This document shows, one piece after another, positions 23,560-59,415 of a stretch of DNA of 64,000 bases (positions within the stretch are counted from its first letter, which is position 1; each line of letters begins with the position of its first letter). Under the pieces are notes generated by a model. That model saw nothing but the letters and a program-made list of their open reading frames with translations. It made no database searches and was not told where the DNA came from. The position numbers and the translations under genes were made by a program. Origin of the DNA: Cytophagales bacterium (GTDB lineage: Bacteria; Bacteroidota; Bacteroidia; Cytophagales; Flammeovirgaceae); the NCBI GenBank assembly GCA_025056215.1, contig JANWWC010000001.1, forward strand, positions 930,001 to 994,000. Reading direction: 5' to 3'.

Positions 23560-24195
23560 TTACTTGCGCAAACTTATAACGTACTCTGATACTACTTTTA
23601 TTTCTTTATCAGATAAAATTTTTGCATATGAAGGCATTGTTCCTCGTCCATCTTGAAGAAGGGAAATAATTTCTTCTTGAGATAACCGACTTACCTTAAG
23701 ATTCTTTGCTCCAGACATTCCGGCATCGCCATACTCTCCATGACAGATAGTACAATATTGTTTGTAGATAGCCTTCCCATGAACATTTACTTCCAAAGGT
23801 GCATTAGCGGGAAGATTTACCAATTCAGGTATTTCTTTTTTTTCTACTTTCTTGGACATTTCTGCTAATCCATAAGAAAGAATTAACATCGCAAGCATCA
23901 AGGTGGCTAGTATTTTATTTTCTTTTTTAAAAGCAACCACCCCAATGGGAATCGAAATAAGCACTAAAACAATTTTTACAATGAGCAATGCTTTAATTTC
24001 AGCAATTAAAAATAGCAATCCTATTCCAGTAAGAAAAAAAATAGAACTAATTATGATTTCTGGGATTTTTGTCTTTTGCCGCAAAAGATGAAGCGCTTCT
24101 TTTTTTTCTGCGAGAAGTAACCCTGTTTTGACAGTATAGAGCACTAAAAAAAGTATTACAAAAGTAATATGAGTGTGAAGCAGCCCCTTGTACAT
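23560..24195 (-). CDS. Membrane protein with SirB-like N-terminal part fused to a cytochrome c domain
   Basis: The first 115 or so of 211 residues form about four hydrophobic helices with a start (LLHTHITFVILFLVLYTVKT) resembling SirB-family membrane proteins. A single cytochrome c domain follows, with the haem motif CTICH and a distal GTMPSY supplying the probable axial Met. The haem domain would face the periplasm. The role is probably electron transfer or redox sensing, but no partner is evident. The gene follows the ABC transporter by 18 bases on the same strand, so the two may be co-transcribed. Confidence 0.78.
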   Translation of the reverse strand: MYKGLLHTHITFVILFLVLYTVKTGLLLAEKKEALHLLRQKTKIPEIIISSIFFLTGIGLLFLIAEIKALLIVKIVLVLISIPIGVVAFKKENKILATLMLAMLILSYGLAEMSKKVEKKEIPELVNLPANAPLEVNVHGKAIYKQYCTICHGEYGDAGMSGAKNLKVSRLSQEEIISLLQDGRGTMPSYAKILSDKEIKVVSEYVISLRK

Positions 24196-24213: not shown

Positions 24214-26382
24214 TTAAACAATAGTTCCAAACTCTGGATGGTTATGCAATTGGTCGTAAGTACCTTGTGCAACCACTTGACCATCTTTAAAAAGAATAAT
24301 TCTGTCGCATCTTTTGAATAAGTAAGAGTCATTCGATAAACAAATAAGCGTCCAAGGATTTTTTTTATCTAACAAAAAGTCTAAGAGTTTGTTTTTTTCT
24401 TCTCTTTCTAAATCATGTAAAATATCATTTAGAATGAGCATCTGAGGGCGCTCTACAATGCAGCGCGCCAAAATGAGCCGTGCTGCAATACTACTCGAAA
24501 AGTTTTTGCCACCTGCAGTCATTTCGGTAAGTAATCCATCTGGAAGTTTGCTAATGTAGTCCATCAATCCTACACTTTCGAGCGCCCAAGAAACATCCTG
24601 AAAAGTAACGCGTGTTTTTCCCATTGTAACATTTTCTAAAAGTGTTCCATCGATGACATCGTCAATCGAGACATTTTTGGCAACATTATCGCGAAGGCTA
24701 TTAACATTAATATCGCGCATAGAAATTCCATTGAGCATAATAGAACCTTGATACTCGTCAAGCAAGCCAGCGAGTATTCTTGCAAAAGTATTTTTACCAG
24801 AACCTCCATATCCTGCAATGCAAATTCTTTCCCCTGATTTAATATCCAAATTGATGCCTTTCAATACATATTTATCTGAATTAGGATATTTATAGTATAA
24901 ATCTCGTATAACTACATTCATGCCAGTGTGTTTAATATGAGGAAGGCTAATTCCTCCACTTTTTTCGAGTGGAATATCTGTAACTGTACCAATTTTTTCT
25001 GCTGCAGTCAGCATATCATAAACCGTACTAACACTCAGAATAAGTTTTTCTACAGCAGTAATAGTTAAAATGATGATAATTTCAGAGGCTACAAATTGCC
25101 CTAATGTAATTTGTCTATCAATAACCAAAATAGAACCTATAATAAGCAATCCACCCGTTACAACTGTTTTAAATCCGATAACGCTAATAAACTGCGTCAT
25201 AAGAATCTTAAATGTACGTTTTCTGTAATACAAATAATTAGTAAGGAAATAATGCATTTTTTGAGCAGGCAGAGAGGTATGTCCCGCAAGTTTGAAAGAA
25301 TACAAAGCGCGTGCTAATTCTTCGAGCCAATGTGCTACTTTATATTTATATTTAGACTCTACAAGATTAGTTCTCAATCCTTGGGGACCTGTAAGCCAAA
25401 AAATGGTAGTAAGTGTAGCCAATAACATAAAACTAAACACGATAAACAAAGGATGATAGAAACTAAGAAGCGCCAAACCAAACAAAATTTGGATGATAGA
25501 ACCTGTTAAATCAATAAGAAGCTTGGGCATTCCTTTCTGAAGGGTTAATACATCAAAAAAGCGATTCATGAGTTCGGGAGCGTATTCTTTTAAGATAGCC
25601 TCCGATTTTACACGTGGAATTCGATTGCAAAATTCAAATGCTGCTTTAACAAACACGCGACGTTCAATAATTTCCACAATCGTGTACTGCAATACCGACA
25701 TCATTCCGCCCAAAATAACCCCTACAATCACTACTGAGATTAACAATACAATGGAATTAAAAATCACGCCACCTGAAATAAGTTCTACAATGGATTGAAT
25801 ACCTAAAGGCAAACTCAAGCTAATAGCAGCATTAATAATGGCATAAAAATATATTAGTAAAATATCTTTTTTTTCAGCCGAAAGGAGACCAAGCAATCGA
25901 GAAACTGGCGTATTGTTAATTCTCTTAAAAATTGTATCGTAAGCGCTCACCATCGGTTTAAGAGAGATTGGTGCAGCGTATATCATATTTCCATCCGAAG
26001 TGATATAAATTTTATCAACATAATTAGTTGCATCAGAAATATGTTCTTCATCAGTACCTCGATATAAGTAAGCCTCTATTTCCTTTCCTTCTACGTATCG
26101 AAAAAGAATAGGAAAAAGCATGCTTCCTTCTTCTATAAACGTAAGAATAGGGTATTCTGCTCCGTCGATGATATCAAAAAAATTTTCTTTTTGAGTTTTA
26201 TTACGAATGAATCCGATTTCTACTCGCTGTCCTTTATCACTAATCCCATCGAAAAACTGTTCAGCATTTTTGCCATAATTAATATTATTTTTGTAATCGT
26301 CTTTAAGATTGATAATTTGATAATCGTGATTGATAATTTCAGCAATTCGTTTGATGATAGGAATGAATTGTAATGAATTCAT
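24214..26382 (-). CDS. ABC exporter-like protein (membrane domain plus degenerate ATPase domain)
   Basis: This 722-residue protein has an N-terminal soluble domain of about 150 residues (possibly a C39-like remnant), a six-helix ABC exporter membrane domain (about 170-460) and a C-terminal nucleotide-binding fold. Almost every catalytic motif of the ATPase is altered. Walker A reads GYGGSGKNT (524-532), with Asn after Lys. The Q-loop position is Ser572. LSGGQ is FSSSI (628-632). The Walker B Asp-Glu pair is Asn652-Asp653. The H-loop His is Asn684. It probably binds ATP poorly and may hydrolyse none, so it could act as the non-catalytic half of a heterodimer. No HlyD or TolC partner is adjacent. 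Confidence 0.83.
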   Translation of the reverse strand: MNSLQFIPIIKRIAEIINHDYQIINLKDDYKNNINYGKNAEQFFDGISDKGQRVEIGFIRNKTQKENFFDIIDGAEYPILTFIEEGSMLFPILFRYVEGKEIEAYLYRGTDEEHISDATNYVDKIYITSDGNMIYAAPISLKPMVSAYDTIFKRINNTPVSRLLGLLSAEKKDILLIYFYAIINAAISLSLPLGIQSIVELISGGVIFNSIVLLISVVIVGVILGGMMSVLQYTIVEIIERRVFVKAAFEFCNRIPRVKSEAILKEYAPELMNRFFDVLTLQKGMPKLLIDLTGSIIQILFGLALLSFYHPLFIVFSFMLLATLTTIFWLTGPQGLRTNLVESKYKYKVAHWLEELARALYSFKLAGHTSLPAQKMHYFLTNYLYYRKRTFKILMTQFISVIGFKTVVTGGLLIIGSILVIDRQITLGQFVASEIIIILTITAVEKLILSVSTVYDMLTAAEKIGTVTDIPLEKSGGISLPHIKHTGMNVVIRDLYYKYPNSDKYVLKGINLDIKSGERICIAGYGGSGKNTFARILAGLLDEYQGSIMLNGISMRDINVNSLRDNVAKNVSIDDVIDGTLLENVTMGKTRVTFQDVSWALESVGLMDYISKLPDGLLTEMTAGGKNFSSSIAARLILARCIVERPQMLILNDILHDLEREEKNKLLDFLLDKKNPWTLICLSNDSYLFKRCDRIILFKDGQVVAQGTYDQLHNHPEFGTIV

Positions 26383-26515: not shown

Positions 26516-27883
26516 TTACTCTACAATTGTTCTATTATCGTCTCCTATAATTTGAGGAATCTGTTCTCGATTGTTCAAACGACGAGCCATGTAGGAAACG
26601 TTTTCTATAAGATATTCTCGCATTTCTTGCAGCGTAATTTTAGAGTCAAGATTTTTATTAGCTGCTCCTTTTAATCCTTTTAAAAAGAAATAAGTAAACA
26701 AAGAATGTTTTTTTTCAGGATACCAAGAAGATACCTGTTCAGAGGATGCAGAAGTAAATATCATAGCAAACTCATCGGTAAGTATTTTATCTCGGGTACT
26801 AATAAAAACAGGCGAAATATTTTTTATCAACATTCCTTTTTCGGATGAGCCACTAAAACAAGCATCTATCACCACAGTACAAGTTCTATAATCAAGTTTA
26901 GAAAGATTAGTGTACAAAGTACTGAGCGAATAGCCGTTAAATTTTACTAAACTTGGATCGCAATCTACGGGGACAAAGTAACCCTCCTTGCTTTCAGGAT
27001 CAGGAGCACCATGACCACTATAATAAATAAAAATATCAGACTGCCGATTAGGTTTCATGTAGTTAAATAATTTGGCTTTATGGTTGTTCTCTGTCCCAAA
27101 AATTGCATTAAAGTTGGCTTGAGTAGCATTTTCGATATAGATAATATTTTCTTCTTTAAAACCCAACATTTTAATTAAATATTCTTTGATAGCGCGCGCG
27201 TCGTGAATTGCGAAATCTACTGAGGGAATATCTTTCGCTATATAATCGCGATTTCCAATCACTACTGCTACTCCATAGGGATTGGTTTTATTTGTTTTAG
27301 GAATGTTGATATCTACATCAGATTCTAATTTGATTTCGCGAAGCGATGTTCTGAGCGGCTGAAACTGATTGCTTTGCACTAAAGTAATACTCGATATATT
27401 TTCTTTTAACTTAGGTAACATCTGATTGATAGCTCTTTTAGCGAGAGCTCCCACATCGTCAGTAACGAATTTATTTGTTTTTTCGTAAAGCTCAAACAAC
27501 ATTTCTTCATTGCCTAGTTGATAAGCTGACATAGTAAGGGTAACAAACATTCCTGTAGGAGAAGAAACTGCTGCTATGTCTGAAAGAAAATAGACATCTG
27601 CTTGCGCTAACTCTGCAATTGATTTCTGAATTTCTGGTAAAGGTTTATCACAAACTCCGTTGGGCTTGGCGCGTTTCAAAGTTTGCATAAAATCTACCAC
27701 CTGATAGCCTGTTGCACTTAGCACTTTTGCAATCTGCTTATTAGCATCTACCACATGCGGATTGTTCTCTAATGCGATGCATAAATTTTGACCATCCTGA
27801 ATCTTAGGAATTACAATAAGCTTTTGTGCCCACAAAGGAGCTTGCATTCCCAAGAATGCAATTAAAATCTTACTTACATTCAT
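26516..27883 (-). CDS. Exported caspase-family (C14) protein
   Basis: The 455-residue protein has a signal peptide (MNVSKILIAFLGMQAPLWAQ), an unassigned N-terminal domain (about 25-185) and a caspase-like peptidase domain starting at YGVAVVIGNRDYI. The catalytic dyad is visible: H291 in YYSGHGAPDP and C342 in VVIDACFSGSS. Bacterial members are metacaspase/orthocaspase-like cysteine proteases that usually cleave after basic residues. The signal peptide places it in the periplasm or outside. The ABC gene begins 133 bases downstream on the same strand; any link is inference. Confidence 0.86.
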   Translation of the reverse strand: MNVSKILIAFLGMQAPLWAQKLIVIPKIQDGQNLCIALENNPHVVDANKQIAKVLSATGYQVVDFMQTLKRAKPNGVCDKPLPEIQKSIAELAQADVYFLSDIAAVSSPTGMFVTLTMSAYQLGNEEMLFELYEKTNKFVTDDVGALAKRAINQMLPKLKENISSITLVQSNQFQPLRTSLREIKLESDVDINIPKTNKTNPYGVAVVIGNRDYIAKDIPSVDFAIHDARAIKEYLIKMLGFKEENIIYIENATQANFNAIFGTENNHKAKLFNYMKPNRQSDIFIYYSGHGAPDPESKEGYFVPVDCDPSLVKFNGYSLSTLYTNLSKLDYRTCTVVIDACFSGSSEKGMLIKNISPVFISTRDKILTDEFAMIFTSASSEQVSSWYPEKKHSLFTYFFLKGLKGAANKNLDSKITLQEMREYLIENVSYMARRLNNREQIPQIIGDDNRTIVE

Positions 27884-41919: not shown

Positions 41920-42852
41920 TTTCTTTTTCATTAAAAAATTACCAATTCAACTTAGTTAAACCTGCTGTTGAACATGTACTAAAAAACATCAAATTTCCAT
42001 AAAATCATTTTTTGTAACCACAGACTAACAAGAAGTAAATGAACAAATTATGTTTCTGAGTCAGATTCTTGAAAAACTCATCATAAAAGACTTTCAGATT
42101 CCAAAAAAGTTTTGAGCATTCGTAATGCGAGAAAATTTCTACTGATCTATACGCATCAATTTTCTTCACATAGAGATTTTTAAGAGAAAAACCTGATCAA
42201 TTTCGTGGATTTATTTCCACAAGGAGAAGTCACACAAATTAGTACAGCGCTTCTGCAAGAGCAAAATTTATCATTCTTTTGTTACTAAGATTCAAAAAAA
42301 CGATTCTCTTCCCTACAAAACATCGGAATTTTGTTCCATGTTAATTCGAACCAAGCAGTTTGTCATATTTTTCAACTTGCGAATACAATTTTCGACCTAC
42401 AATAGGGCAAAATACCCAAATATCAAAATGGACTTCGCAAAGTTAATCCAGAAATATCAAGAGTATTTTCTGAGCTTATGAAAGAACGTTCTGACTATTA
42501 ACGTCTTAGCTAAAATAAAGTATGAATAAAATTTGCGTTCCGAAGATGTCTTGTTAATGTCAGCATTCAACAAAAATATAATTCGCTACATCAATCAGAA
42601 TATAAACATCCAAAGTAGTGAGAAAGTGATGAACAATACTTTTTTCTAATGCTTTAGTCTATGAAATAGAAGAAATATTCTCTCCTACGATAAAGAGATT
42701 CCCTCTATTGCAAGACAATTATTCCGTTTAAGACAAGTGATTTTAACAATTTTTTTACAAACATGTTTTTAACATTGTACCTTTATTCAAAAACGCATCT
42801 CTTTTTTGTTATAAAATTGCATTTTACTATCTTTATAAAAAAGCTAAAAAAG
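41920..42852 (+). pseudogene. Probable decayed coding sequence, unidentified
   Basis: Over 900 bases lie without an intact gene. On the plus strand several protein-like fragments are visible in shifting frames separated by stops: LINFVDLFPQGEVTQIS with ALLQEQNLSFF (about 42195-42285), NIGILFHVNSNQAVCHIFQL (about 42322-42381), KVNPEISRVFSELMKERSDY (about 42440-42499) and SEDVLLMSAFNKNIIRYI (about 42540-42600). This looks like a gene broken by frameshifts and stops, but the family was not recognised and chance is not excluded. The first ATG in frame with the next gene at 42763 is probably not its start. Confidence 0.4.
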
Positions 42853-45800
42853 ATGAACCTTCAACAAAATCTCCAGAGATTTAAGAGAAAGTATTACCTT
42901 AATTTGTGCATAAAAGGAAGCTTGCTCGCTTTAAGTTTGCTTATTAGCGCGTTTATGCTTGTCAACGCGATTGAATACTTTGGCCAATTATCAAGTACCT
43001 ATCGCACGATTTTGTTCTTTGGGTATTTATCTATTGCAGGAGTTGCAATCTACTTTTGGACAATTCATCCAGCCATCAAACTTATTAACAAAAAAACGCA
43101 GCTTTCTGATGAAGAAGCGGCGCGATTTATTGGCAATCACTTTCCAAACGTAGGCGATAAACTTTTGAATACACTCCAACTTTTTAAACTAGCAGCACAA
43201 TCGGAGTTAGCCCGTGCTGGTATCATGCAAAAACAATCTCAAATGGAAAATATTGATTTTGCTTCTGCCATCGACTTGCGAGAAAATCGAAAATATTTGC
43301 GTTTTATTGTGGCTCCTTTTTTAATAGGAATAGGAATTTGGGTTTTTGTTCCACAGTTTTTTACAGAATCTACTCCCCGTCTGATTCAATACCATAAAGA
43401 ATTTATTCCGCGAGCACCTTTTCAGTTTGTCATTTTGAACGATACATTGCAAACTTTTCAAAACGAAGATTTCTTACTCAATGTAAAAGTTACAGGAACA
43501 GCAATTCCTCAAGCAGTTTACCTTATAACTGATGACGGGCGCAGACTAAGACTTTCTCAACAAAAAACAGACTCTTTTACTTATCATTTTACTCAACTAA
43601 GGCAATCTTTTCAATTTTATTTGGAGGGTTCAGGATTTCGCTCTCAAGAAACTTACTTTTTAGAAGTACTCGAACGCCCTCTTTTGAAAAATTTTCAGGT
43701 TCATTTAACCTACCCCGCTTACATTAATAAGAGTTCTCAAACGATGGAAAATATAGGCACGCTTACCATCCCTCAAGGTACAAAAGTGGAGTGGTTTTTC
43801 TCTACATCCGAAACCGACTCAATGAGCATTTTCTTTCTAAAGGATCGCCAAACAGCTACACTTACTAAAAACAAAGATAAGTTTAGCTTTCAACGAAAAT
43901 TTTATCAATCCGAAAATTATCAGATACAACTATTCAATCGTTACTCTCGAAACAAAGAACCAATAGAGTATACTATTAATGTTATTCCTGACCTTTCACC
44001 TACTATCACAGTGCAACAATTTCAAGATACTGTTTTGTTTGAGAAATTATTTTTGGGAGGAAATATTACAGACGATTACGGTATTTCAGCGCTATATTTT
44101 AAATACAAAGTATTTAATCCTTACGGAGCAGATACAAGCAAACATTATGCAAGCATTCCCATCTCATTTAATAAAAATGTGATCAATCAGAGTTATTTTC
44201 ACCAAGTTTCTTTATCAGAACTAAATTTAGAAAAAGGCGCTACCATAGAATATTTTGTAGAAGTATGGGATAACGATGGCGTAAACGGCAGAAAATCAGC
44301 GCGCACACCTGTCATGCGGTTCAGAACTCCTACGAAAGCAGAAATAAAAGAAAGCATTGCGCGCACCGCTACTAATACCGAACAACAACTCGATAATGCT
44401 CTCGACAAAGCCAAAGAAGCGAAAAAAGAAACACGTGAGTTACAAGAGCGTCTCAAAAGCAAAAGAAGGCTCGATTGGCAAGATAAACGTTTAGTAGAAC
44501 AAATGACAGAACAGCGCAAAGAACTTGAAAAAACAATCGAGCAACTTCAAGAACAAAGCCGGCAACTCAACGAAAAACAAGAAAAAAATAACGCTTTCCA
44601 AAATGAAAGAATCGCTGAAAAAGCAAAAGAGCTCCAAAAACTTATGGATGAACTCTTAGACAAAGATACTAAAAAACTTTATGAAGAACTTAACCGCCTG
44701 ATGGAACAAAATGTTGTTACAGACGATTTACAACGCTTGCTAGAAAAAATTGAGCAAAAACAACTCAACTTAGAACGCGAACTCGACAGAGCTTTAGAGA
44801 TGTTCAAAAAACTTAAGTTTGAAATGAAAGTAGAACAACTCAAAAACGACCTGAAAGAACTCTCTCAGGCTCAAGAAAATCTTGCAAAAGAAACGGAAGA
44901 AACTAAGAAATCAGAATTAGAAGAGATTCAACGCAAACAAGAACAACTCAACTTCGAATTTGACCAACTCCAAAAAGAATTCGATGAGCTTAAAAAAATG
45001 AACCAAGAACTTCAACAACACAAAGAATACGAGCTCGAACAACTGGAAAATCTTCAAAAAGAAACAGACCAAAAGCAAGAAAACGCTTTGAAAGAACTCC
45101 AGAAAAATAACAAAAAGTCATCTATTCAACAACAAAAGGAGGCAGCTGAAAAAATGAAGCAAATGGCCCAAAAAATGGAGCAAATGCAGCAAGAAAGCGA
45201 AATGCAACAACTCGGCGAAAACTATGATGATTTGCGGCAAATCCTAGACAATCTCATCAAGCTCTCTTTTGACCAAGAAGCTTTAATGAAAGAATTTCGC
45301 TCTGTAAAACGAATCGACCCTAAGTTTGTCAAACTTAGCCAACAACAACTTAAACTGAAAGAAGATGCTAAAATCATAGAAGATAGTCTTTTAGCTCTTT
45401 CTAAAAGAGTATTTCAACTTCAATCTTTTGTAACGCGAGAAGTCGCCGAAATGAACCGCTACATGGATGAATCTATGGAAGAAATTCGAAAAAGAGTTCC
45501 TGAAACTGTTTCTGCTAAACAACAGTTTGCCATGACTTCCATGAACAATCTCGCTTTGATGCTCAACGATCTTCTCCAACAAATGCAAAATCAGATGCAA
45601 AGCATGGCAGGAAAAGGGCAACAAAAAAATTCTCAAAAGAAAAATCAAGGAAGCACTCCTAAATTATCCGACTTACAAAAACAACTCAACCAAAAAATTG
45701 AAGAACTCAAAAAATCAGGCAAAACAGGCCGCGAACTCTCGGAAGAACTCGCCAAACTGGCTGCCGAGCAAGAAGCCATTCGTCGAGCACTCCAACAGCA

Positions 45801-46239
45801 GCAAAAAGCTAGCCAAAAAGGTGAACAAGGCGAAGGAAACCCTGATGGAAAGCAAGGAAAATCTCAGAACGGAAATACTTCTGAAGACGATAAAAACAAA
45901 GAAGGAGAAAATGGACAAAAAGATGGCGGAAAGACAGGACAACTTATGGAAGAAACCGAAAAAGATTTAGTAAACAAAAAATTGGACGATGAACTCTTGC
46001 GTAGACAACAAGAAATCTTAACACGACTTCTCGAATCTGAAAAAGCTCAACGTGAACGAGACTTTGACGACAAACGCGAAGCACAACAAGCTCAAGAAAA
46101 ACAATCGCAAACTTCTAAACAGTTCGAAGAATATTTTAAATTAAAAGAAAAACAAACGGAACTCCTCAAAACAGTTCCTCCATCGCTGAGCCCGTATTAT
46201 AAACAACAAGTAGATGAATACTTTAAAAAACTAAAATAA
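42853..46239 (+). CDS. DUF4175 family protein: membrane-anchored giant coiled coil
   Basis: A 1128-residue protein of the Bacteroidota DUF4175 family, function unknown. Two N-terminal membrane helices (about 20-40 and 50-70) and another near residue 150 precede a beta-rich region (about 190-520). From about residue 545 to the end it is nearly pure Glu/Lys/Gln-rich coiled coil, with a low-complexity Gly/Gln/Asn/Lys section around 920-1055. The start at 42853 (MNLQQNLQRFKRKYY) was preferred to an upstream ATG at 42763 that adds 30 hydrophobic residues. maf follows after one base, so the two are translationally coupled. Confidence 0.8.
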   Translation: MNLQQNLQRFKRKYYLNLCIKGSLLALSLLISAFMLVNAIEYFGQLSSTYRTILFFGYLSIAGVAIYFWTIHPAIKLINKKTQLSDEEAARFIGNHFPNVGDKLLNTLQLFKLAAQSELARAGIMQKQSQMENIDFASAIDLRENRKYLRFIVAPFLIGIGIWVFVPQFFTESTPRLIQYHKEFIPRAPFQFVILNDTLQTFQNEDFLLNVKVTGTAIPQAVYLITDDGRRLRLSQQKTDSFTYHFTQLRQSFQFYLEGSGFRSQETYFLEVLERPLLKNFQVHLTYPAYINKSSQTMENIGTLTIPQGTKVEWFFSTSETDSMSIFFLKDRQTATLTKNKDKFSFQRKFYQSENYQIQLFNRYSRNKEPIEYTINVIPDLSPTITVQQFQDTVLFEKLFLGGNITDDYGISALYFKYKVFNPYGADTSKHYASIPISFNKNVINQSYFHQVSLSELNLEKGATIEYFVEVWDNDGVNGRKSARTPVMRFRTPTKAEIKESIARTATNTEQQLDNALDKAKEAKKETRELQERLKSKRRLDWQDKRLVEQMTEQRKELEKTIEQLQEQSRQLNEKQEKNNAFQNERIAEKAKELQKLMDELLDKDTKKLYEELNRLMEQNVVTDDLQRLLEKIEQKQLNLERELDRALEMFKKLKFEMKVEQLKNDLKELSQAQENLAKETEETKKSELEEIQRKQEQLNFEFDQLQKEFDELKKMNQELQQHKEYELEQLENLQKETDQKQENALKELQKNNKKSSIQQQKEAAEKMKQMAQKMEQMQQESEMQQLGENYDDLRQILDNLIKLSFDQEALMKEFRSVKRIDPKFVKLSQQQLKLKEDAKIIEDSLLALSKRVFQLQSFVTREVAEMNRYMDESMEEIRKRVPETVSAKQQFAMTSMNNLALMLNDLLQQMQNQMQSMAGKGQQKNSQKKNQGSTPKLSDLQKQLNQKIEELKKSGKTGRELSEELAKLAAEQEAIRRALQQQQKASQKGEQGEGNPDGKQGKSQNGNTSEDDKNKEGENGQKDGGKTGQLMEETEKDLVNKKLDDELLRRQQEILTRLLESEKAQRERDFDDKREAQQAQEKQSQTSKQFEEYFKLKEKQTELLKTVPPSLSPYYKQQVDEYFKKLK

Positions 46240-50272: not shown

Positions 50273-52285
50273 TTATACTTTTATTCCCATCAATGTAATA
50301 TCATCGCGTTGTTCTGCATATTGTTGATGTAATTTGAGTTCTTGTAAAAGAATTTCTTTTTGTTCTGAAAAAGAACGGGCATGAATTTCTTCTAATAACT
50401 TTGTAAACCGATGGCTACCAAAACTTTTACGAGAAGGATTAGCTTGATCTGCAAATCCATCACTCGCTAAATAAAATACATCATCTGGAAACACCTCTAA
50501 AGTATGACAAGTATAACTTCGAGTGGAGTTAGGATCTCCTCCGATATTTTTGCGATCTCCATTAATTTTAATAAGCTGATGTTTTGAAAACAAAATCAAA
50601 TTGTTTTTCGCACCTGCAAAATGTAATTTTATTTTATTATCGCTGTAATCTAAAACTGCTATTCCCAAGTCCATGCCGTCTTTATTTTTTCCTGCAGCTT
50701 GGTTTAATTTTTGAATAACTTGGCTGTGTAGTTGATTTAAAATCTCCGCAGGGTTGTAAACTTTATTTTGAACAATAATTTCATTTAAAATGGAGTGACC
50801 TATTAAAGACATAAACGCTCCTGGAACTCCATGTCCTGTACAATCTATTACTCCTACTATTTTTAAATTATCATGTTGGGATATCCAAAAGAAATCACCC
50901 GATACGATATCTTTAGGAAGGTAAATTAAAAAACTTTCTTTAAGGATCCTGCACCTTTCTTCTTTAGTAGGCAAAACAGCCTTCTGTATTGTTTGCGCGT
51001 ATCGAATACTATAAAGAATTTGCTGATTCTTTTGAGAAAGCAATACATTTTGCTCTGCAAGCCTTTCTTGAATAGCTTGCAATTCCTCTAAATTTTGACG
51101 GAGCTCTTCTTCGCTGGCTAGGAGTTCTTCATTTTTTTGCTTTAACTCATTTTGTTGTTCACTGATAATTTGAAGTTGCTCTTCAATTTGTTGATTTTTT
51201 TGTTCTAAAATCTTAGCAGACTTTTTCTTATTGCGGTAGTTGCGATAGATGAAAAATATCATTCCTGCAAATAGAAAGATAATTACCGAACTGAGGTAAA
51301 TCAGATTCCTTTGGTAATTAAGCTGGATGTCCTGCTGTTTTAATATGTTTCTTTGTTCTTGAATTTTTTCCTCTTGCTTTTTAATTTCAGCCAACAGATT
51401 TGATAAGTGAGATTTTCTCTTCTCTAGCTCGTCTTTTTGTTGATTCAGAATTTTTTCTTGCTCTTCTACTAAGCTCGTTTGCTTCTGGAGAAGCGATGCT
51501 TTTTCTGCTAATAATTTAGATTGAGTTTCAATATCATTAGAAAGTTGGTGAAGTTTAAGTTTTTGTTTGGCAATTTCTTCTCTTTGTTGTGCAATTTCTA
51601 ATTTTTGCTTTTCTATTTCAGCAGCTTGTTTGGCTATTTCAGCTTGTTGTCGTTCTATTTCCTTATTTTGACGCTCAATCTCGGCACGCTGGCGACTGAT
51701 TTCAGAAGCTTGCAACTTTACTTTCTCACGCTCACTCTCAAGAGAAGACTGAGTTTCTTTATATAATTTCGCAACATCTATTTCACTTCCTCCTAATAAA
51801 ATTAGTGAACTGCTAGGAGCAATCCCAGCATTAATGAGATTGGCTTTATGAATTTCAAAAGAAATTTTATTTTCTTTTCGAAGCAGATTTATCATCACAT
51901 ATCGCTGATCTGGAGCCATATCAGAAACCAACAATATATCTTTTTGAAGCGTTTTAAGGACTTCATCTGTTTGAAAGGAATGTTTGTCATCCAAATACAA
52001 AACTTGTATTTCTGCAGGGACTTTATTCAAGTTTTTAAGCCCTATAACTGAAATAGGCTTTTCTTTCAGTTTGCGATCCTCTAATTTTTTAAAGTTTTCT
52101 AACAAGGAGTTGCTTTCTGTTAGAACAGCAATATTATACTTTCGGATGTTTTGTTCTTTATCCCACTCCAAGTTTTGGAGAATTTTATAGACCAAAGCTA
52201 CTTTTATTGTCTCATCACTAATTTGCTGAGAATAAAGACAAAAAAAGCTACATAAAAACACTATCGTTGCGATGAGTTTTTTCAT
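50273..52285 (-). CDS. SpoIIE/PP2C-type phosphatase with YfiR-like periplasmic domain and coiled coils
   Basis: This 670-residue protein has a signal peptide (1-19), a YfiR/DUF4154-like periplasmic domain (about 22-165), a long periplasmic coiled coil (about 175-325) with at least six near-identical seven-residue repeats (AEIERQN, KEIERQQ, AEIAKQA and so on), one membrane helix (about 328-348), a cytoplasmic coiled coil (355-425) and a SpoIIE phosphatase domain (about 430-670). Catalytic metal residues are present in VSGDFFW, DCTGHGVPGAFMS, KDGMDLGIAVL and ASDGFADQ. It would dephosphorylate a serine or threonine in a partner protein in response to a periplasmic signal. A TonB-dependent receptor lies just upstream. 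Confidence 0.88.
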   Translation of the reverse strand: MKKLIATIVFLCSFFCLYSQQISDETIKVALVYKILQNLEWDKEQNIRKYNIAVLTESNSLLENFKKLEDRKLKEKPISVIGLKNLNKVPAEIQVLYLDDKHSFQTDEVLKTLQKDILLVSDMAPDQRYVMINLLRKENKISFEIHKANLINAGIAPSSSLILLGGSEIDVAKLYKETQSSLESEREKVKLQASEISRQRAEIERQNKEIERQQAEIAKQAAEIEKQKLEIAQQREEIAKQKLKLHQLSNDIETQSKLLAEKASLLQKQTSLVEEQEKILNQQKDELEKRKSHLSNLLAEIKKQEEKIQEQRNILKQQDIQLNYQRNLIYLSSVIIFLFAGMIFFIYRNYRNKKKSAKILEQKNQQIEEQLQIISEQQNELKQKNEELLASEEELRQNLEELQAIQERLAEQNVLLSQKNQQILYSIRYAQTIQKAVLPTKEERCRILKESFLIYLPKDIVSGDFFWISQHDNLKIVGVIDCTGHGVPGAFMSLIGHSILNEIIVQNKVYNPAEILNQLHSQVIQKLNQAAGKNKDGMDLGIAVLDYSDNKIKLHFAGAKNNLILFSKHQLIKINGDRKNIGGDPNSTRSYTCHTLEVFPDDVFYLASDGFADQANPSRKSFGSHRFTKLLEEIHARSFSEQKEILLQELKLHQQYAEQRDDITLMGIKV

Positions 52286-55145: not shown

Positions 55146-55916
55146 ATGTTAGAAAAAATCAAAATAATTTTAGAAAATGCATATGAAAAGTTTCATCGAT
55201 TTGAGTTTTTAACAGAAGATCCATTACAAATCCCACACCGATTTCATCGCTTGCAAGACCAAGAAATTATGGGATTTTTAGCCGCTACTCTAGCATGGGG
55301 CCAGAGAAAAACTATCATTAAAAAATGCGAGGAAATCATTTCTTTATTTGATGGTGCTCCTTACGAATTTGTACTTCACCATACCAAGCAAGACATAAAG
55401 CGTTTAGAATCATTTCAACATCGCACTTTTAATGGAACAGATTTGATATACTTTGTTACTTGGCTTTCTGGATATTATCGCCAACACAACAGTTTAGAAG
55501 ATACATTTGCTCGTCATCTTCAGATAAATAGTACTGATGTAAGCGCTGCATTAGTAGGTTTTCATCGCGATTTTTTTTCATTGCCTTTTGCGCCAGCGCG
55601 CACACGAAAACACATAGCAACCCCTGAACGCAAATCTACTTGCAAACGACTTAACATGCTACTACGCTGGTTTGTAAGAAACGGAGATGTCGATTTGGGA
55701 ATTTGGAAAAAAATATCCCCATCTCAGTTAATTTGTCCGCTGGACGTACATACAGAAAGAACAGCCCGCTTTCTTGGTTTGCTAACAAGAAAACGCACTG
55801 ATTGGTTGGCAGCTCTTGAGCTGACACAAAATTTACGACTTCTAGATGCTCAAGACCCTGTCAAGTATGATTTTGCTTTGTTTGGGTTAAGTATTGAAAG
55901 ACACTTTATATTCTAA
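55146..55916 (+). CDS. TIGR02757 family protein (DUF2400), function unknown
   Basis: The 256-residue protein matches TIGR02757: DPLQIPHRFHRLQDQEIMGF near the start, AATLAWGQRKTIIKKCEEI, and CPLDVHTERTARFLGLLTRK near the C terminus. It appears cytoplasmic and helical. Some relatives resemble HhH-GPD-type DNA glycosylases in fold, but no function is established. Its 3' end overlaps the convergent propeller-SpoIIE gene by 11 bases. Confidence 0.88.
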   Translation: MLEKIKIILENAYEKFHRFEFLTEDPLQIPHRFHRLQDQEIMGFLAATLAWGQRKTIIKKCEEIISLFDGAPYEFVLHHTKQDIKRLESFQHRTFNGTDLIYFVTWLSGYYRQHNSLEDTFARHLQINSTDVSAALVGFHRDFFSLPFAPARTRKHIATPERKSTCKRLNMLLRWFVRNGDVDLGIWKKISPSQLICPLDVHTERTARFLGLLTRKRTDWLAALELTQNLRLLDAQDPVKYDFALFGLSIERHFIF

Positions 55917-58900
55917 AGCCAATAAAAGTAATATCGTCAATTTGTTTATGAGGCCCTTTCCAACGATTAAAAAGTTGGTCGAGTACAGCCTGTTGATAAG
56001 ACATTGGTGCTTCATAATTTTCTAAAAGCAACGCTTGAATATTGCGAATGCTCAATTTTTTGCCGTCGGGGCCGCCAAATTGATCCTGTAAACCGTCAGA
56101 AAAAATGTAATAGTTTGCAGTAAGAGAGAGTTTGATGACTTGTTTTGTATATTTGCGTTCCAATTTGTCTCGCAATTGTCCTCCAATTGGAAGTTTATCA
56201 CCTTTATAGAGATGAATAGCTTCTCCGTTTCCATTTACCTGATACTTATCAATTACCAGCAAAGGATTTTTAGCACCCGCGAATTCCATAATGCCTAGTG
56301 GCTTATTGATAACACAAATTGCCATGTCCATGCCATCCTGGTTTTGGTTTTTTTCATGTTTAAGATTAACCAAACCATGATTGAGCTCCATTAAAATTGC
56401 TTCTGGGTCAGTAATTTCTCGAATATTTATAATTTGATCTAAGAGTGTATCCGCAATCATCGACATAAAAGCACCTGGCACGCCATGTCCTGTACAATCG
56501 ATGGCTGCAATAATATCCTTTCCTTTCACATGAGTATACCAATAAAGATCTCCACTCACTACGTCTTTAGGTTTGTAATATACAAAGTAGTCAGAGAAAG
56601 CAGCTTGCAAGCTTTCTGGAGTAGGAAGCATTATTTCTTGGATACGTTTAGCATATCGGATACTACTATCAATTTTAGCTTTCTGATTTTCAATTTCTTC
56701 TTTTTGCAGTTTGAGTTGCTCGTTAATCAACTTCATTTCTTCATTTTGTTCGTTGATTCTTCTACTTTTCTCCATTAGCTCATTTTGCTGCTCAATAAGT
56801 TGATTATTAAACTGTTCGATTTGCTGTTTTTGACGAAGAGATTCCTCATAAAGTTTCTGAATTTCAGCAGTACGTTCTTGCACAGTTTTCTCCAGCATAA
56901 TCTGACGGAGCTGAATTCTTCTAATTCTCCATCGATAAATAAGATAAGCCATACTCATCACAAGAATTACCATCAATAATTTAAACCACCAAGTTTGCCA
57001 ATAAGGTGGTTTAATAATGATGCGAACACTTTTGCTTTCTGTGCTCCAAATATCGTCACTATTAGAAGCTTTCACTTTAAAGGTATAAGTGCCAGGATTA
57101 AGATTGGTGTAAGTTGCAAACCGATTCTCTGCATCTGTATAAATCCATTCATCATCAAACCCTTCGAGCATATATGCATATCGATTTCGCTCGGGAAATA
57201 CAAAATGCATTGCAGAAAATTTAAAGGAAAATACATTGTTTTCGTAGTCTAAAACAAGCGTTTTAGTTTCGGAAATGTGTTTTTTCAAAATAGCATCTTG
57301 TGCATCAGGAACTACTAACTTCCCATGGATGTAGAGATCTGTAATTACGACGCGAGGCTCGTAAGCGTTTTCTCTCACATCTCGAGGTCGAAAAGCGTTA
57401 TAGCCATTAATACCTCCAAAGTAAACTTCTCCATCTTCTGTGCGCAAGAAAGCCCCTTGGTTAAATTCATTTCCTTGTAAGCCATCTCGTACATCAAAAT
57501 TTTTTACACGCTCCGTAGTCAAGTTAAACCGAGAAATTCCTCGGTTAGTGCTTATCCAAAGATTGCCTAATTCGTCGCTTACGATAGCATTAATAAGATT
57601 ACTTGCCAATCCTTCGCGCTCACGATAAATATGAAAGCCATCGATTTTTTCGTCATATCGGCAAAGTCCACCGTTTTTAGTACCTACCCACAAATTTTTG
57701 TTGCGGTCTATATGCAATGCTTGAACAATTACATGACTAATACTATGAGGGTTAGAAGGGTCTACGTTGTAATTTTTAAAAGTTTCAGTTCGAGGATTGA
57801 ACATATCTAATCCTTTAGCACGCGTACCGTACCAAATGTTTCCGTGTTTATCTTCAATGATGCATTGAATATTATCATTAGAAGGGGAATTGGGATTATC
57901 TTTATCGGTTTTATAAACTTTAAAATTATTAGTAGCAGACTGATAGCGAGCTAAACCACCCTTAGTACCTACCCAGATTGTTCCATCAGAAGATTGATAC
58001 AAGTAATTGATTTCGTTATGAGGAATCCCGTCGTCTTTTTCTTTTTCGTGCAAAATTTGGGTAACTTTTTCAGTGTGAGGATTCATAATGTTAAGCCCTC
58101 GCTTTGTACCAATCCATAAATTTCCATCATGAGCGTACAGCAAACTCGTAATATAATAAGAGCTTAGTTCATTTTTTCCATTACTGAAACTCGGCACGAA
58201 TGCTTTATGGGTTTTAGTTATTCTGTTATAACGCATTAGTCCACCCTGAGTTCCTATCCACAAAATGGAGTCTTCCATGAGCGCAAAAGATGTCACATTA
58301 TTGTGAACGATAGTAGTAGAATCAGCAGGGTTATGGAAGAAGTGAGCAAAATATTGAAATTTTTTATCATACTTATGAAGTCCTTGTAGTTCAGTACCAA
58401 TCCATAGCAATCCTGAGTGATCTACTGTAATTGTATTGAGTTGCTCTGTAAGTAAGCTGTTAGGCAAATTACTAACATGATAAGAAATAAAAGTTTCGGA
58501 TTGTTCTATGAAACGATTTAAACCGTAATGCGTCGTAATCCAAATGTTACCTTCTCTATCTTCTGCAATGCCTGTTACTGTTGGGCTGCTCAGATGGTGG
58601 GGGTCTGTTCCGCTTCGGTACCTTCTAAAAAAACCGTCTCTATCTAATCGATTTAAACCGTTACCCGTTCCTATCCAAATACGTTTTTTAGAATCTTCAA
58701 AAATAGCATAAATGCGCCCATCCGTTGTGCCATCGGCTAAATATTCTTGGGTTTTGTTGATGGGAAATCGCTGAAAGCTCTTGGTTTTTCGATTATATTT
58801 GTGTAATTGGTGTTCCGTTCCTATCCAGAGCTCTCCATAACTATCTCGAAATAAAGTGCGGACATTTGGTCCGTTTAAAGAATCAGGATTCTCAGGAACA

Positions 58901-59415
58901 CTCTTATAGCGCGTATAACTTCCTGTATGAATATCCATACGGATTGCGCCTGCTCCATTCGTTCCTGCCCATAGATATCCGTCTTTATCTTGGCTAATAG
59001 ACCAAATATAAACGATGCTTGAGTTTGTTTCTCCTTTCTCGTCTTTAAAATAGTAGTTTATAAAGTTTTCTTTCGAACGATTGAACTTGCTTAAGCCATC
59101 GCTTGTACCGATCCATACGTTTCCTTCAAAATCTTCGTAGATAGCTCTAATCCAATTTCCTGCAATAGAGGTAGAATCAAATTGGTCATGTTTAAATCTT
59201 TTGATATTATAGCCATCATAACGGTTTAAGCCATCTTTAGTACCAATCCACAAATAACCATAAGAATCCTGCATAATTGCATATACACTTCCTTGAGAAA
59301 GACCATCTTCTACGCCTACATGCCCAAATCGTAGGCGATTGAATTGCGCCCATCCTAAAGTGCTCAAACAATACCCAATACTAAAAAGCAGTAATACCTT
59401 TTTTTTCATTTCCAT
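55906..59415 (-). CDS. Fourteen-blade propeller sensor with SpoIIE/PP2C phosphatase output
   Basis: The 1169-residue protein has a signal peptide (1-23) and 14 propeller repeats of the LWIGTxxGL type (about 50-670), enough for two seven-bladed propellers. A Y_Y_Y domain (about 685-800), one membrane helix (about 811-828), a coiled coil (about 835-940) and a SpoIIE phosphatase domain (about 945-1169) follow, with VSGDLYW, DCTGHGVPGAFMS, QDGMDMAICV and IFSDGLQDQ. The sensor half is that of hybrid two-component systems that sense glycans in Bacteroides, but histidine kinase and regulator parts are replaced by a serine/threonine phosphatase. The substrate is unknown. Confidence 0.9.
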   Translation of the reverse strand: MEMKKKVLLLFSIGYCLSTLGWAQFNRLRFGHVGVEDGLSQGSVYAIMQDSYGYLWIGTKDGLNRYDGYNIKRFKHDQFDSTSIAGNWIRAIYEDFEGNVWIGTSDGLSKFNRSKENFINYYFKDEKGETNSSIVYIWSISQDKDGYLWAGTNGAGAIRMDIHTGSYTRYKSVPENPDSLNGPNVRTLFRDSYGELWIGTEHQLHKYNRKTKSFQRFPINKTQEYLADGTTDGRIYAIFEDSKKRIWIGTGNGLNRLDRDGFFRRYRSGTDPHHLSSPTVTGIAEDREGNIWITTHYGLNRFIEQSETFISYHVSNLPNSLLTEQLNTITVDHSGLLWIGTELQGLHKYDKKFQYFAHFFHNPADSTTIVHNNVTSFALMEDSILWIGTQGGLMRYNRITKTHKAFVPSFSNGKNELSSYYITSLLYAHDGNLWIGTKRGLNIMNPHTEKVTQILHEKEKDDGIPHNEINYLYQSSDGTIWVGTKGGLARYQSATNNFKVYKTDKDNPNSPSNDNIQCIIEDKHGNIWYGTRAKGLDMFNPRTETFKNYNVDPSNPHSISHVIVQALHIDRNKNLWVGTKNGGLCRYDEKIDGFHIYREREGLASNLINAIVSDELGNLWISTNRGISRFNLTTERVKNFDVRDGLQGNEFNQGAFLRTEDGEVYFGGINGYNAFRPRDVRENAYEPRVVITDLYIHGKLVVPDAQDAILKKHISETKTLVLDYENNVFSFKFSAMHFVFPERNRYAYMLEGFDDEWIYTDAENRFATYTNLNPGTYTFKVKASNSDDIWSTESKSVRIIIKPPYWQTWWFKLLMVILVMSMAYLIYRWRIRRIQLRQIMLEKTVQERTAEIQKLYEESLRQKQQIEQFNNQLIEQQNELMEKSRRINEQNEEMKLINEQLKLQKEEIENQKAKIDSSIRYAKRIQEIMLPTPESLQAAFSDYFVYYKPKDVVSGDLYWYTHVKGKDIIAAIDCTGHGVPGAFMSMIADTLLDQIINIREITDPEAILMELNHGLVNLKHEKNQNQDGMDMAICVINKPLGIMEFAGAKNPLLVIDKYQVNGNGEAIHLYKGDKLPIGGQLRDKLERKYTKQVIKLSLTANYYIFSDGLQDQFGGPDGKKLSIRNIQALLLENYEAPMSYQQAVLDQLFNRWKGPHKQIDDITFIGFRI

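Follow-up and report, generated by a model that had tools for sequence, protein, structure and literature searches.

A family of ABC-exporter-like proteins with degenerate ATPase motifs and HlyD- and TolC-type partners in Bacteroidota

What does an exporter of the ATP-binding cassette (ABC) type do once the residues of its ATPase have been replaced? The question is raised by a gene in a 64,000-nucleotide stretch of DNA from a Cytophagales bacterium (contig JANWWC010000001.1; the whole stretch is called the window here). The gene encodes a protein that we call pseudo-ABC, which has the transmembrane domain (TMD) and the nucleotide-binding domain (NBD) of an ABC exporter, and five altered ATPase motifs. 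Our results suggest that pseudo-ABC is probably the inner-membrane subunit of a type-1-secretion-like HlyD-TolC exporter that works without ATP hydrolysis. The motif losses are real and family-wide, and the protein is likely functional; the complex, its substrate and its energy source we infer.

The ATPase motifs of pseudo-ABC and its relatives

The motifs of the window protein were located by alignment with four ABC exporters from the same genome. This alignment bears out the list of substitutions drawn up by an earlier inspection of the letters alone (the sequence-only reading). The Q-loop Gln, the LSGGQ signature, the Walker B Asp-Glu pair and the H-loop His are all absent (Table 1), and going by its motifs the protein would not be an ATP-hydrolysing exporter. 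Which letter stands at the Q-loop position depends on the alignment: it is Ser if the alignment is ungapped, Ile stands opposite Gln in the gapped phmmer alignment, and it is never Gln.

The earlier statement that the overall fold is intact agrees with an AlphaFold2 model, which has a type IV ABC exporter fold at a mean predicted local distance difference test score (pLDDT) of 87.6. A Pfam scan of the 722 residues finds ABC_tran (PF00005) over the cut-off and ABC_membrane weakly; on this match and the predicted model the protein has both the type IV TMD and the NBD fold. The top NCBIfam matches, to exporters for peptides and for type 1 secretion, fall far under the cut-off. In structure comparison the model matches HlyB (8dck_A) with a TM-score of 0.76 of the query, and MsbA and TM287/288 with a Z of about 30; the listing did not include every family, and absences from it are uninformative. 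The N-terminal 150 residues, modelled alone, match the C39 domains of PCAT1, HlyB and ComA at Z 9.3–10.3, with 7–8% identity to those of PCAT1 and HlyB. Other papain-like folds reach Z 9.0, and Foldseek gives only weak matches for this domain, the best to YopQ (E 0.0025) and the next to ComA. With a C39-like fold without cysteine joined to a type IV fold with lost motifs, the modelled protein resembles an exporter of the HlyB type in which the peptidase-like and the ATPase domain are both dead.

Are these losses peculiar to one gene? Relatives were drawn from a named genome collection, in which 120 loci were confirmed and 80 retained, from related genomes and from 395 sampled genomes of the phylum. 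With ABC matches at E up to 1e-60, the family is present in 97 of the 395, and 64 of these 97 belong to the window's own class. Among the matches listed for 58 related genomes, family members score at least 289 bits and other ABC proteins at most 118 bits; the family is therefore discrete. The closest relative found for the window copy is 58% identical. Our motif table comprises 160 family sequences including the window protein, 153 of them with an NBD, and covers a part of the positive phylum genomes. It omits exact repeats, broken frames (L073 and L105), genes cut by a contig end (L063 and L065) and matches below 38% identity, and one of its rows (L149) is a fragment.

Not one of the 153 NBD-bearing members retains the Q-loop Gln, and none has the SGG of LSGGQ; the S and the second G of the signature are jointly present in 12. 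Walker B DE is found in 23, the H-loop His in 26 and Walker A GK[ST] in 118, and all five motifs together in none. The control set of 34 rows combines one canonical exporter, represented by 30 rows drawn from the window genome and its relatives, with the four own-genome exporters; 33 rows are distinct (L003 is the same as L190). No tested motif position is changed in more than one of these rows: all 34 have the Q-loop Gln, and 33 have both signature glycines. Since the same positions are changed family-wide yet retained in the controls, the substitutions are beyond chance, and the homologue alignment proposed as a check by the sequence-only reading shows that they are shared across the family.

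Deep-branching members retain up to four of the five motifs. The Walker A Lys is followed by Asn, Asp, Ala or His in the window protein and in the relatives closest to it. A plasmid search gave seven records with family members, 31–40% identical; five of the seven are annotated 'ABC transporter ATP-binding protein' and the remaining two have no annotated feature. On a plasmid of Aureibacter tunicatorum the P-loop is gone (L241, KYNATEKN) and the motif in transmembrane helix 6 (TM6), described below, is intact; the protein is annotated as an ATP-binding protein. No publication on the family was found in the open-licence literature, judged by titles and abstract openings; subscription papers lie outside this scope.

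Conservation of the membrane domain and loss of the ATPase domain

If the ATPase has been abandoned, then which part of the protein is conserved? We compared 102 relatives with the window protein, excluding its self-comparison and five duplicate loci. Mean identity is 0.54 in the TMD and 0.39 in the NBD, and the TMD is the more similar domain in 102 of 102. In the canonical orthologue set, taken from relatives of the window genome, the values are 0.45 for the TMD and 0.70 for the NBD, with the TMD higher in none of 29. Conservation is inverted relative to the canonical exporter.

The ratio of non-synonymous to synonymous change (dN/dS, or omega) was calculated for 74 pairs, three of them repeats. 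We used the 12 pairs with dN below 0.1 in both domains; the others are distant or near saturation. Omega in these close pairs is 0–0.05 for the TMD and 0.007–0.094 for the NBD, and lower in the TMD in 11 of the 12 (the exception is L022/L023). Hence both domains are maintained by purifying selection in the relatives. With losses common to the relatives and strong purifying selection in close relative pairs, the earlier claim that the gene is kept for a role other than normal ATP hydrolysis is supported.

Some members have no ATPase domain at all. In 6 of the 97 ABC-positive phylum genomes, the match, in an open frame of 334–360 codons, is confined to the membrane part. Among 61 genomes each of families f11 and f23, such TMD-only forms occur in 19 and 6, respectively; with one each in f13 and f18 the total is 27, and single-contig genomes are among the carriers in f11 and f23. 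The 22 TMD-only loci that we read have frames of 334–424 codons, followed in all 22 by a HlyD and then a TolC gene. The HlyD frame overlaps the TMD-only gene or starts no more than about 70 bases after it, and there is no room for an NBD between the two, a statement that does not extend to the rest of the genome. Omega is 0.06–0.15 in the 15 least diverged TMD-only pairs, in which dS is high. Three TMD-only members scanned against Pfam (E 1) match ABC_membrane and no SbmA/BacA family. In one genome (G527) a full-length operon and a TMD-only operon coexist (L230 and L231), and each includes a HlyD and a TolC gene of its own.

A tree of the membrane domain was built by a quick method from 113 of 184 rows, after dropping rows more than 80% identical; its outgroup branch is very long, and the root and the order of losses are unsure. 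In this tree 76 of the 80 rows with at most two motifs form one clade with all 15 TMD-only rows (support 100), and the TMD-only rows are a single clade nested within it (99). Outside the larger clade are the rows that retain at least three motifs, and also four rows that retain two or fewer (L138, L139, L149 and L155). That the TMD-only rows are one clade yet spread over f11, f13, f18 and f23 suggests that this form spread among these families by transfer. Several independent deletions of the NBD, which we also considered, are not borne out by the single TMD-only clade.

Within the membrane domain, three residues of TM6 set the family apart. Of 180 family rows, 178 have Glu at position 434, where all 34 control rows have Ile or Leu. 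An acidic residue stands at position 445 in 177 family rows, and 32 of the 34 controls carry Lys or Arg there; Lys446 is found in 174 of the 180. All 22 TMD-only rows keep Glu434, and 77% of them Glu445. The AlphaFold2 model places both glutamates in TM6, a predicted helix of residues 427–468. Glu237 in TM2 is conserved as well, but is not family-specific, because 21 of the 34 control rows have Glu there too. Two further stretches, which we take to be coupling helices 1 and 2, can be followed into the TMD-only forms. For the coupling helix 1 region the consensus share is 0.85 in TMD-only rows, against 0.80 in degenerate rows of full length; the coupling helix 2 region (residues 360–374) is eroded, with 0.11 in the former and 0.51 in the latter.

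Partner genes and the window locus

In the relatives, pseudo-ABC genes are accompanied by a HlyD-type and a TolC-type gene. Across 101 distinct relatives' loci (the window locus and six repeats excluded) a same-strand HlyD-type gene lies directly downstream in 88, and a TolC-type gene is second downstream in 68 of the 75 loci that contain a second gene; a TetR-like gene lies upstream in 49 of the 101. A HlyD profile search (E up to 1e-40) over the same 395 phylum genomes matched 96, namely 96 of the 97 ABC-positive genomes and none of the 298 ABC-negative ones. The exception, G201, has a diverged HlyD adjoining its ABC gene. Fifteen placed loci, including that of the window, have no HlyD directly downstream. 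Eight of these were searched genome-wide and all eight were positive, with HlyD just beyond the end of the fetched stretch in two; the window genome was settled separately, and six are unsettled, of which three are very short or abut a contig end.

The window genome has a single HlyD match, on the same contig about 666 kb from the pseudo-ABC gene, and its TolC is on a different contig, with one further weak match. Compared with their L047 counterparts, identity is 62% for HlyD and 51% for TolC. The ABC, HlyD and TolC genes thus stand at three separate loci, and the window shows no operon because two of the three genes are located elsewhere. The operon would have been scattered with all three genes retained. 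The HlyD gene of this genome (G000:C9:286641-287936, locus L127) adjoins a MacB_PCD/FtsX permease, with overlapping frames, which is perhaps a new partner; an arginine-decarboxylase-like gene also lies beside it.

Table 1. Features of the pseudo-ABC gene and other genes of the window (positions are those of the window)
Feature	Position	Strand	Residues	Remarks
Pseudo-ABC exporter gene	24214-26382	minus	722 aa	ATG start
N-terminal domain, C39-like (papain-like) fold	25933-26382	minus	1-150	0 Cys; model pLDDT 87.6
Transmembrane domain (TMD)	24943-25911	minus	158-480	best conserved part
PELMNRFFDVLTLQKG, coupling helix 1 region	25531-25578	minus	269-284	assigned by analogy to canonical exporters; also retained in relatives without an NBD
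Glu434, TM6	25081-25083	minus	434	family versus control alignment
Glu445-Lys446, TM6	25045-25050	minus	445-446	family versus control alignment
Degenerate nucleotide-binding domain (NBD)	24247-24915	minus	490-712
Walker A GYGGSGKNTF	24784-24813	minus	524-533	Lys530 retained, Asn531 instead of Ser/Thr
Q-loop position	24667-24669	minus	572	Ser instead of Gln; alignment to own-genome exporters
Signature	24487-24501	minus	628-632	FSSSI instead of LSGGQ
Walker B	24424-24429	minus	652-653	Asn-Asp instead of Asp-Glu; alignment to own-genome exporters
H-loop position	24331-24333	minus	684	Asn instead of His; alignment to own-genome exporters
SirB-like domain fused to cbb3-type cytochrome c domain	23560-24195	minus	211 aa	SirB-like part is a membrane domain
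Caspase-like protein (Peptidase_C14)	26516-27883	minus
1158-aa protein	42763-46239	plus	1158 aa	DUF4175 stretch
SpoIIE-phosphatase protein	50273-52285	minus
SpoIIE-phosphatase protein	55906-59415	minus

The sequence-only reading had stressed an unusual context, an exported caspase-like protein and a SirB-cytochrome c fusion. Neither neighbour is conserved context: the SirB fusion cluster has no other member in any fetched neighbourhood, the remainder was ruled out by inspection of the neighbourhoods, and HlyD and TolC are conserved instead. A gap of 18 bases separates the pseudo-ABC gene from the SirB-cytochrome gene downstream of it, and 22 bases separate the latter from a dihydrofolate reductase gene further downstream; in this genome the three may be co-transcribed. 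The caspase-like protein has a hydrophobic N-terminus, a DUF6175-like part ahead of the caspase domain, and YSGHG and DACFSG stretches.

Further away in the window, the protein with the DUF4175 stretch has a very long second half rich in Lys, Glu and Gln, and the AT skew is 0.37 at 44–46 kb. The two SpoIIE-phosphatase proteins are encoded close together, and their sensor parts differ; they are a two-component propeller with a Y_Y_Y domain and a YfiR/HmsC-like DUF4154.

How pseudo-ABC could work

How could such a protein take part in export? With HlyB-HlyD-TolC type 1 secretion, pseudo-ABC shares the type IV exporter fold, the C39-like N-terminal domain (at fold level only) and the HlyD and TolC genes, which are adjacent in most relatives and unlinked in the window genome. 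It differs in its five altered motifs, in a TMD conserved above the NBD, in a clade without an NBD and in that no substrate gene is recognised. Judged by the motifs, and by the clade that has no NBD, ATP hydrolysis at its own NBD, which characterises type 1 secretion, is not to be expected.

Going by the fold (C39-like domain, type IV TMD and NBD fold), the ancestor would have been a HlyB-like exporter. The ABC-fold protein, the HlyD-type periplasmic adaptor and the TolC-type outer-membrane channel would form one complex, in which transport or gating would proceed without ATP hydrolysis. A dimeric TMD could be driven by an ion gradient, with Glu434 and Glu445 as candidate coupling residues; perhaps these family-specific TM6 glutamates couple protons. 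Alternatively, the TMD could be a passive gate and an anchor for the HlyD-TolC duct. If it were a pure scaffold, merely anchoring and opening that duct for substrates that are already periplasmic, it would be easy to see why no energy source is visible in the sequence and why HlyD is retained in 96 of 97 ABC-positive genomes. Yet Glu434, Glu445 and Lys446 are nearly invariant and absent at those positions in the controls, which is more than an anchor should need, and we give a pure scaffold a modest chance. One could also argue that the NBD binds nucleotide without hydrolysing it and, like regulatory ABC proteins, acts as a sensor or gate. Most NBD-bearing members do have Walker A GK[ST], the NBD fold is predicted to be intact and the domain is under purifying selection in the 12 close pairs. 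On the other hand, the window protein and the relatives closest to it have Asn, Asp, Ala or His after the Lys, the Aureibacter P-loop is lost and the TMD-only clade survives without the domain, so we give this gate or sensor, too, a modest chance. A receptor-like or regulatory role may also apply.

Could ATP be hydrolysed by another protein? Pseudo-ABC might be the silent half of a heterodimer whose intact half-transporter hydrolyses ATP, as the sequence-only reading had offered. Degenerate sites are common in heterodimers, and PMC7756269 names TAP, TM287/288, TmrAB and Pdr5 as exporters with a degenerate site and one canonical site retained, every motif of one site being altered in Pdr5. The same motifs are altered in pseudo-ABC, and exporters with intact or nearly intact motifs are encoded in the same genome (L002–L005). 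The silent half is nevertheless very unlikely. The signature is lost jointly with Walker B and the H-loop, and because pseudo-ABC has thus lost both sides of the composite site, neither site would be canonical even with an intact partner; one clade, moreover, is entirely without an NBD. No partner that could supply a canonical site lies nearby: none of the 110 fetched neighbourhoods, a few of which are duplicates and some no longer than 5 kb, holds a second full-length exporter, an unlinked partner not having been searched for. A scan for ABC genes near the family gave none at E 1e-15 and, at E 1e-3, four ABC-like open reading frames (237–285 aa), none of them a full exporter. It is also rather improbable that a separate NBD protein docks on the coupling helices and hydrolyses ATP in trans. 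Such docking would fit the retention of the coupling helix 1 region even in TMD-only forms, but coupling helix 2 is eroded in that clade, the docking site of full-length members is already occupied by their own NBD, and an ABC ATPase gene lies near only one (L135) of the six TMD-only stretches annotated in all frames (L130–L135), no genome-wide search having been made. Finally, the gene might simply be decaying. Its motifs look degraded, its operon is scattered, and its genome, at 2.83 Mb, is small beside the 5.4–9.5 Mb of 16 of the 17 other genomes in the family. But the frame of 722 codons is open, identical losses are fixed family-wide, close relative pairs are under strong purifying selection and HlyD is co-retained. 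The sequence-only reading would have inferred a decaying transporter from a dominance of homologues with intact motifs together with elevated non-synonymous change in this copy; all five motifs occur together in none of the 153, and the evidence for selection comes from relatives rather than the window copy. Decay is barely credible: we reject it for the family on the shared losses and omega, and on the window copy, with its nearest relative 58% identical, it is not measurable.

Several points weigh against a HlyD-TolC exporter that works without ATP hydrolysis. With Walker A GK[ST] in 118 of 153 members, nucleotide binding may persist in many of them, and the deep-branching members with up to four of five motifs may, by their sequence, still hydrolyse ATP. 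The retained NBD does something, because it is itself under purifying selection where present. The coupling helix 1 region survives in forms without an NBD, which would fit an ATPase in trans. Omega is lower in the TMD in two of three equally close control pairs as well, so that this measure does not separate the family from the control. Lastly, the HlyD of the window genome, beside its MacB-like permease, could have swapped partner.

LmrA deprived of its NBD is a proton-driven pump. The nearest precedent for pseudo-ABC is SbmA, which, according to PMC13316013, is an NBD-less proton-driven transporter with an ABC-exporter-type membrane fold and a conserved 'glutamate ladder'; it is an importer that has lost the coupling helices, and its descent has been traced to an ancestor of YddA. 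The likeness to SbmA/BacA would lie in a membrane domain of ABC-exporter type that has lost its NBD and works without ATP, and perhaps in conserved membrane glutamates, for which Glu434 and Glu445 are the family-specific candidates. The differences are that the pseudo-ABC family keeps the coupling helix 1 region, the HlyD-TolC operon and intermediates with a dead NBD. The window protein has no SbmA/BacA family match in Pfam (E 0.001), and only the TMD-only clade is NBD-less like the SbmA-like transporters (SLiPT). Our tentative proposal, possible although we would not call it probable, is that a type 1 secretion ABC protein became an ion-driven secondary exporter inside the HlyD-TolC complex, independently of SbmA, and that intermediates survive in Bacteroidota. 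The surviving stages would be the dead NBD, the lost P-loop and the deleted NBD.

What does this mean for the bacteria that carry the family? Because members are annotated as 'ABC transporter ATP-binding protein', an ATP-driven pump is attributed to many genomes in which this protein is probably unable to hydrolyse ATP, although deep-branching members may still do so. The family also offers a graded natural series in one co-inherited gene set, from four of five motifs down to no ATPase domain. Hence the need of an ABC exporter for its ATPase, and what might replace it, become directly testable. If the step from primary to secondary transport that we propose is true, it would be the second case besides SbmA, and if the exporter is indeed driven by ions, it would be a new way to power tripartite export.
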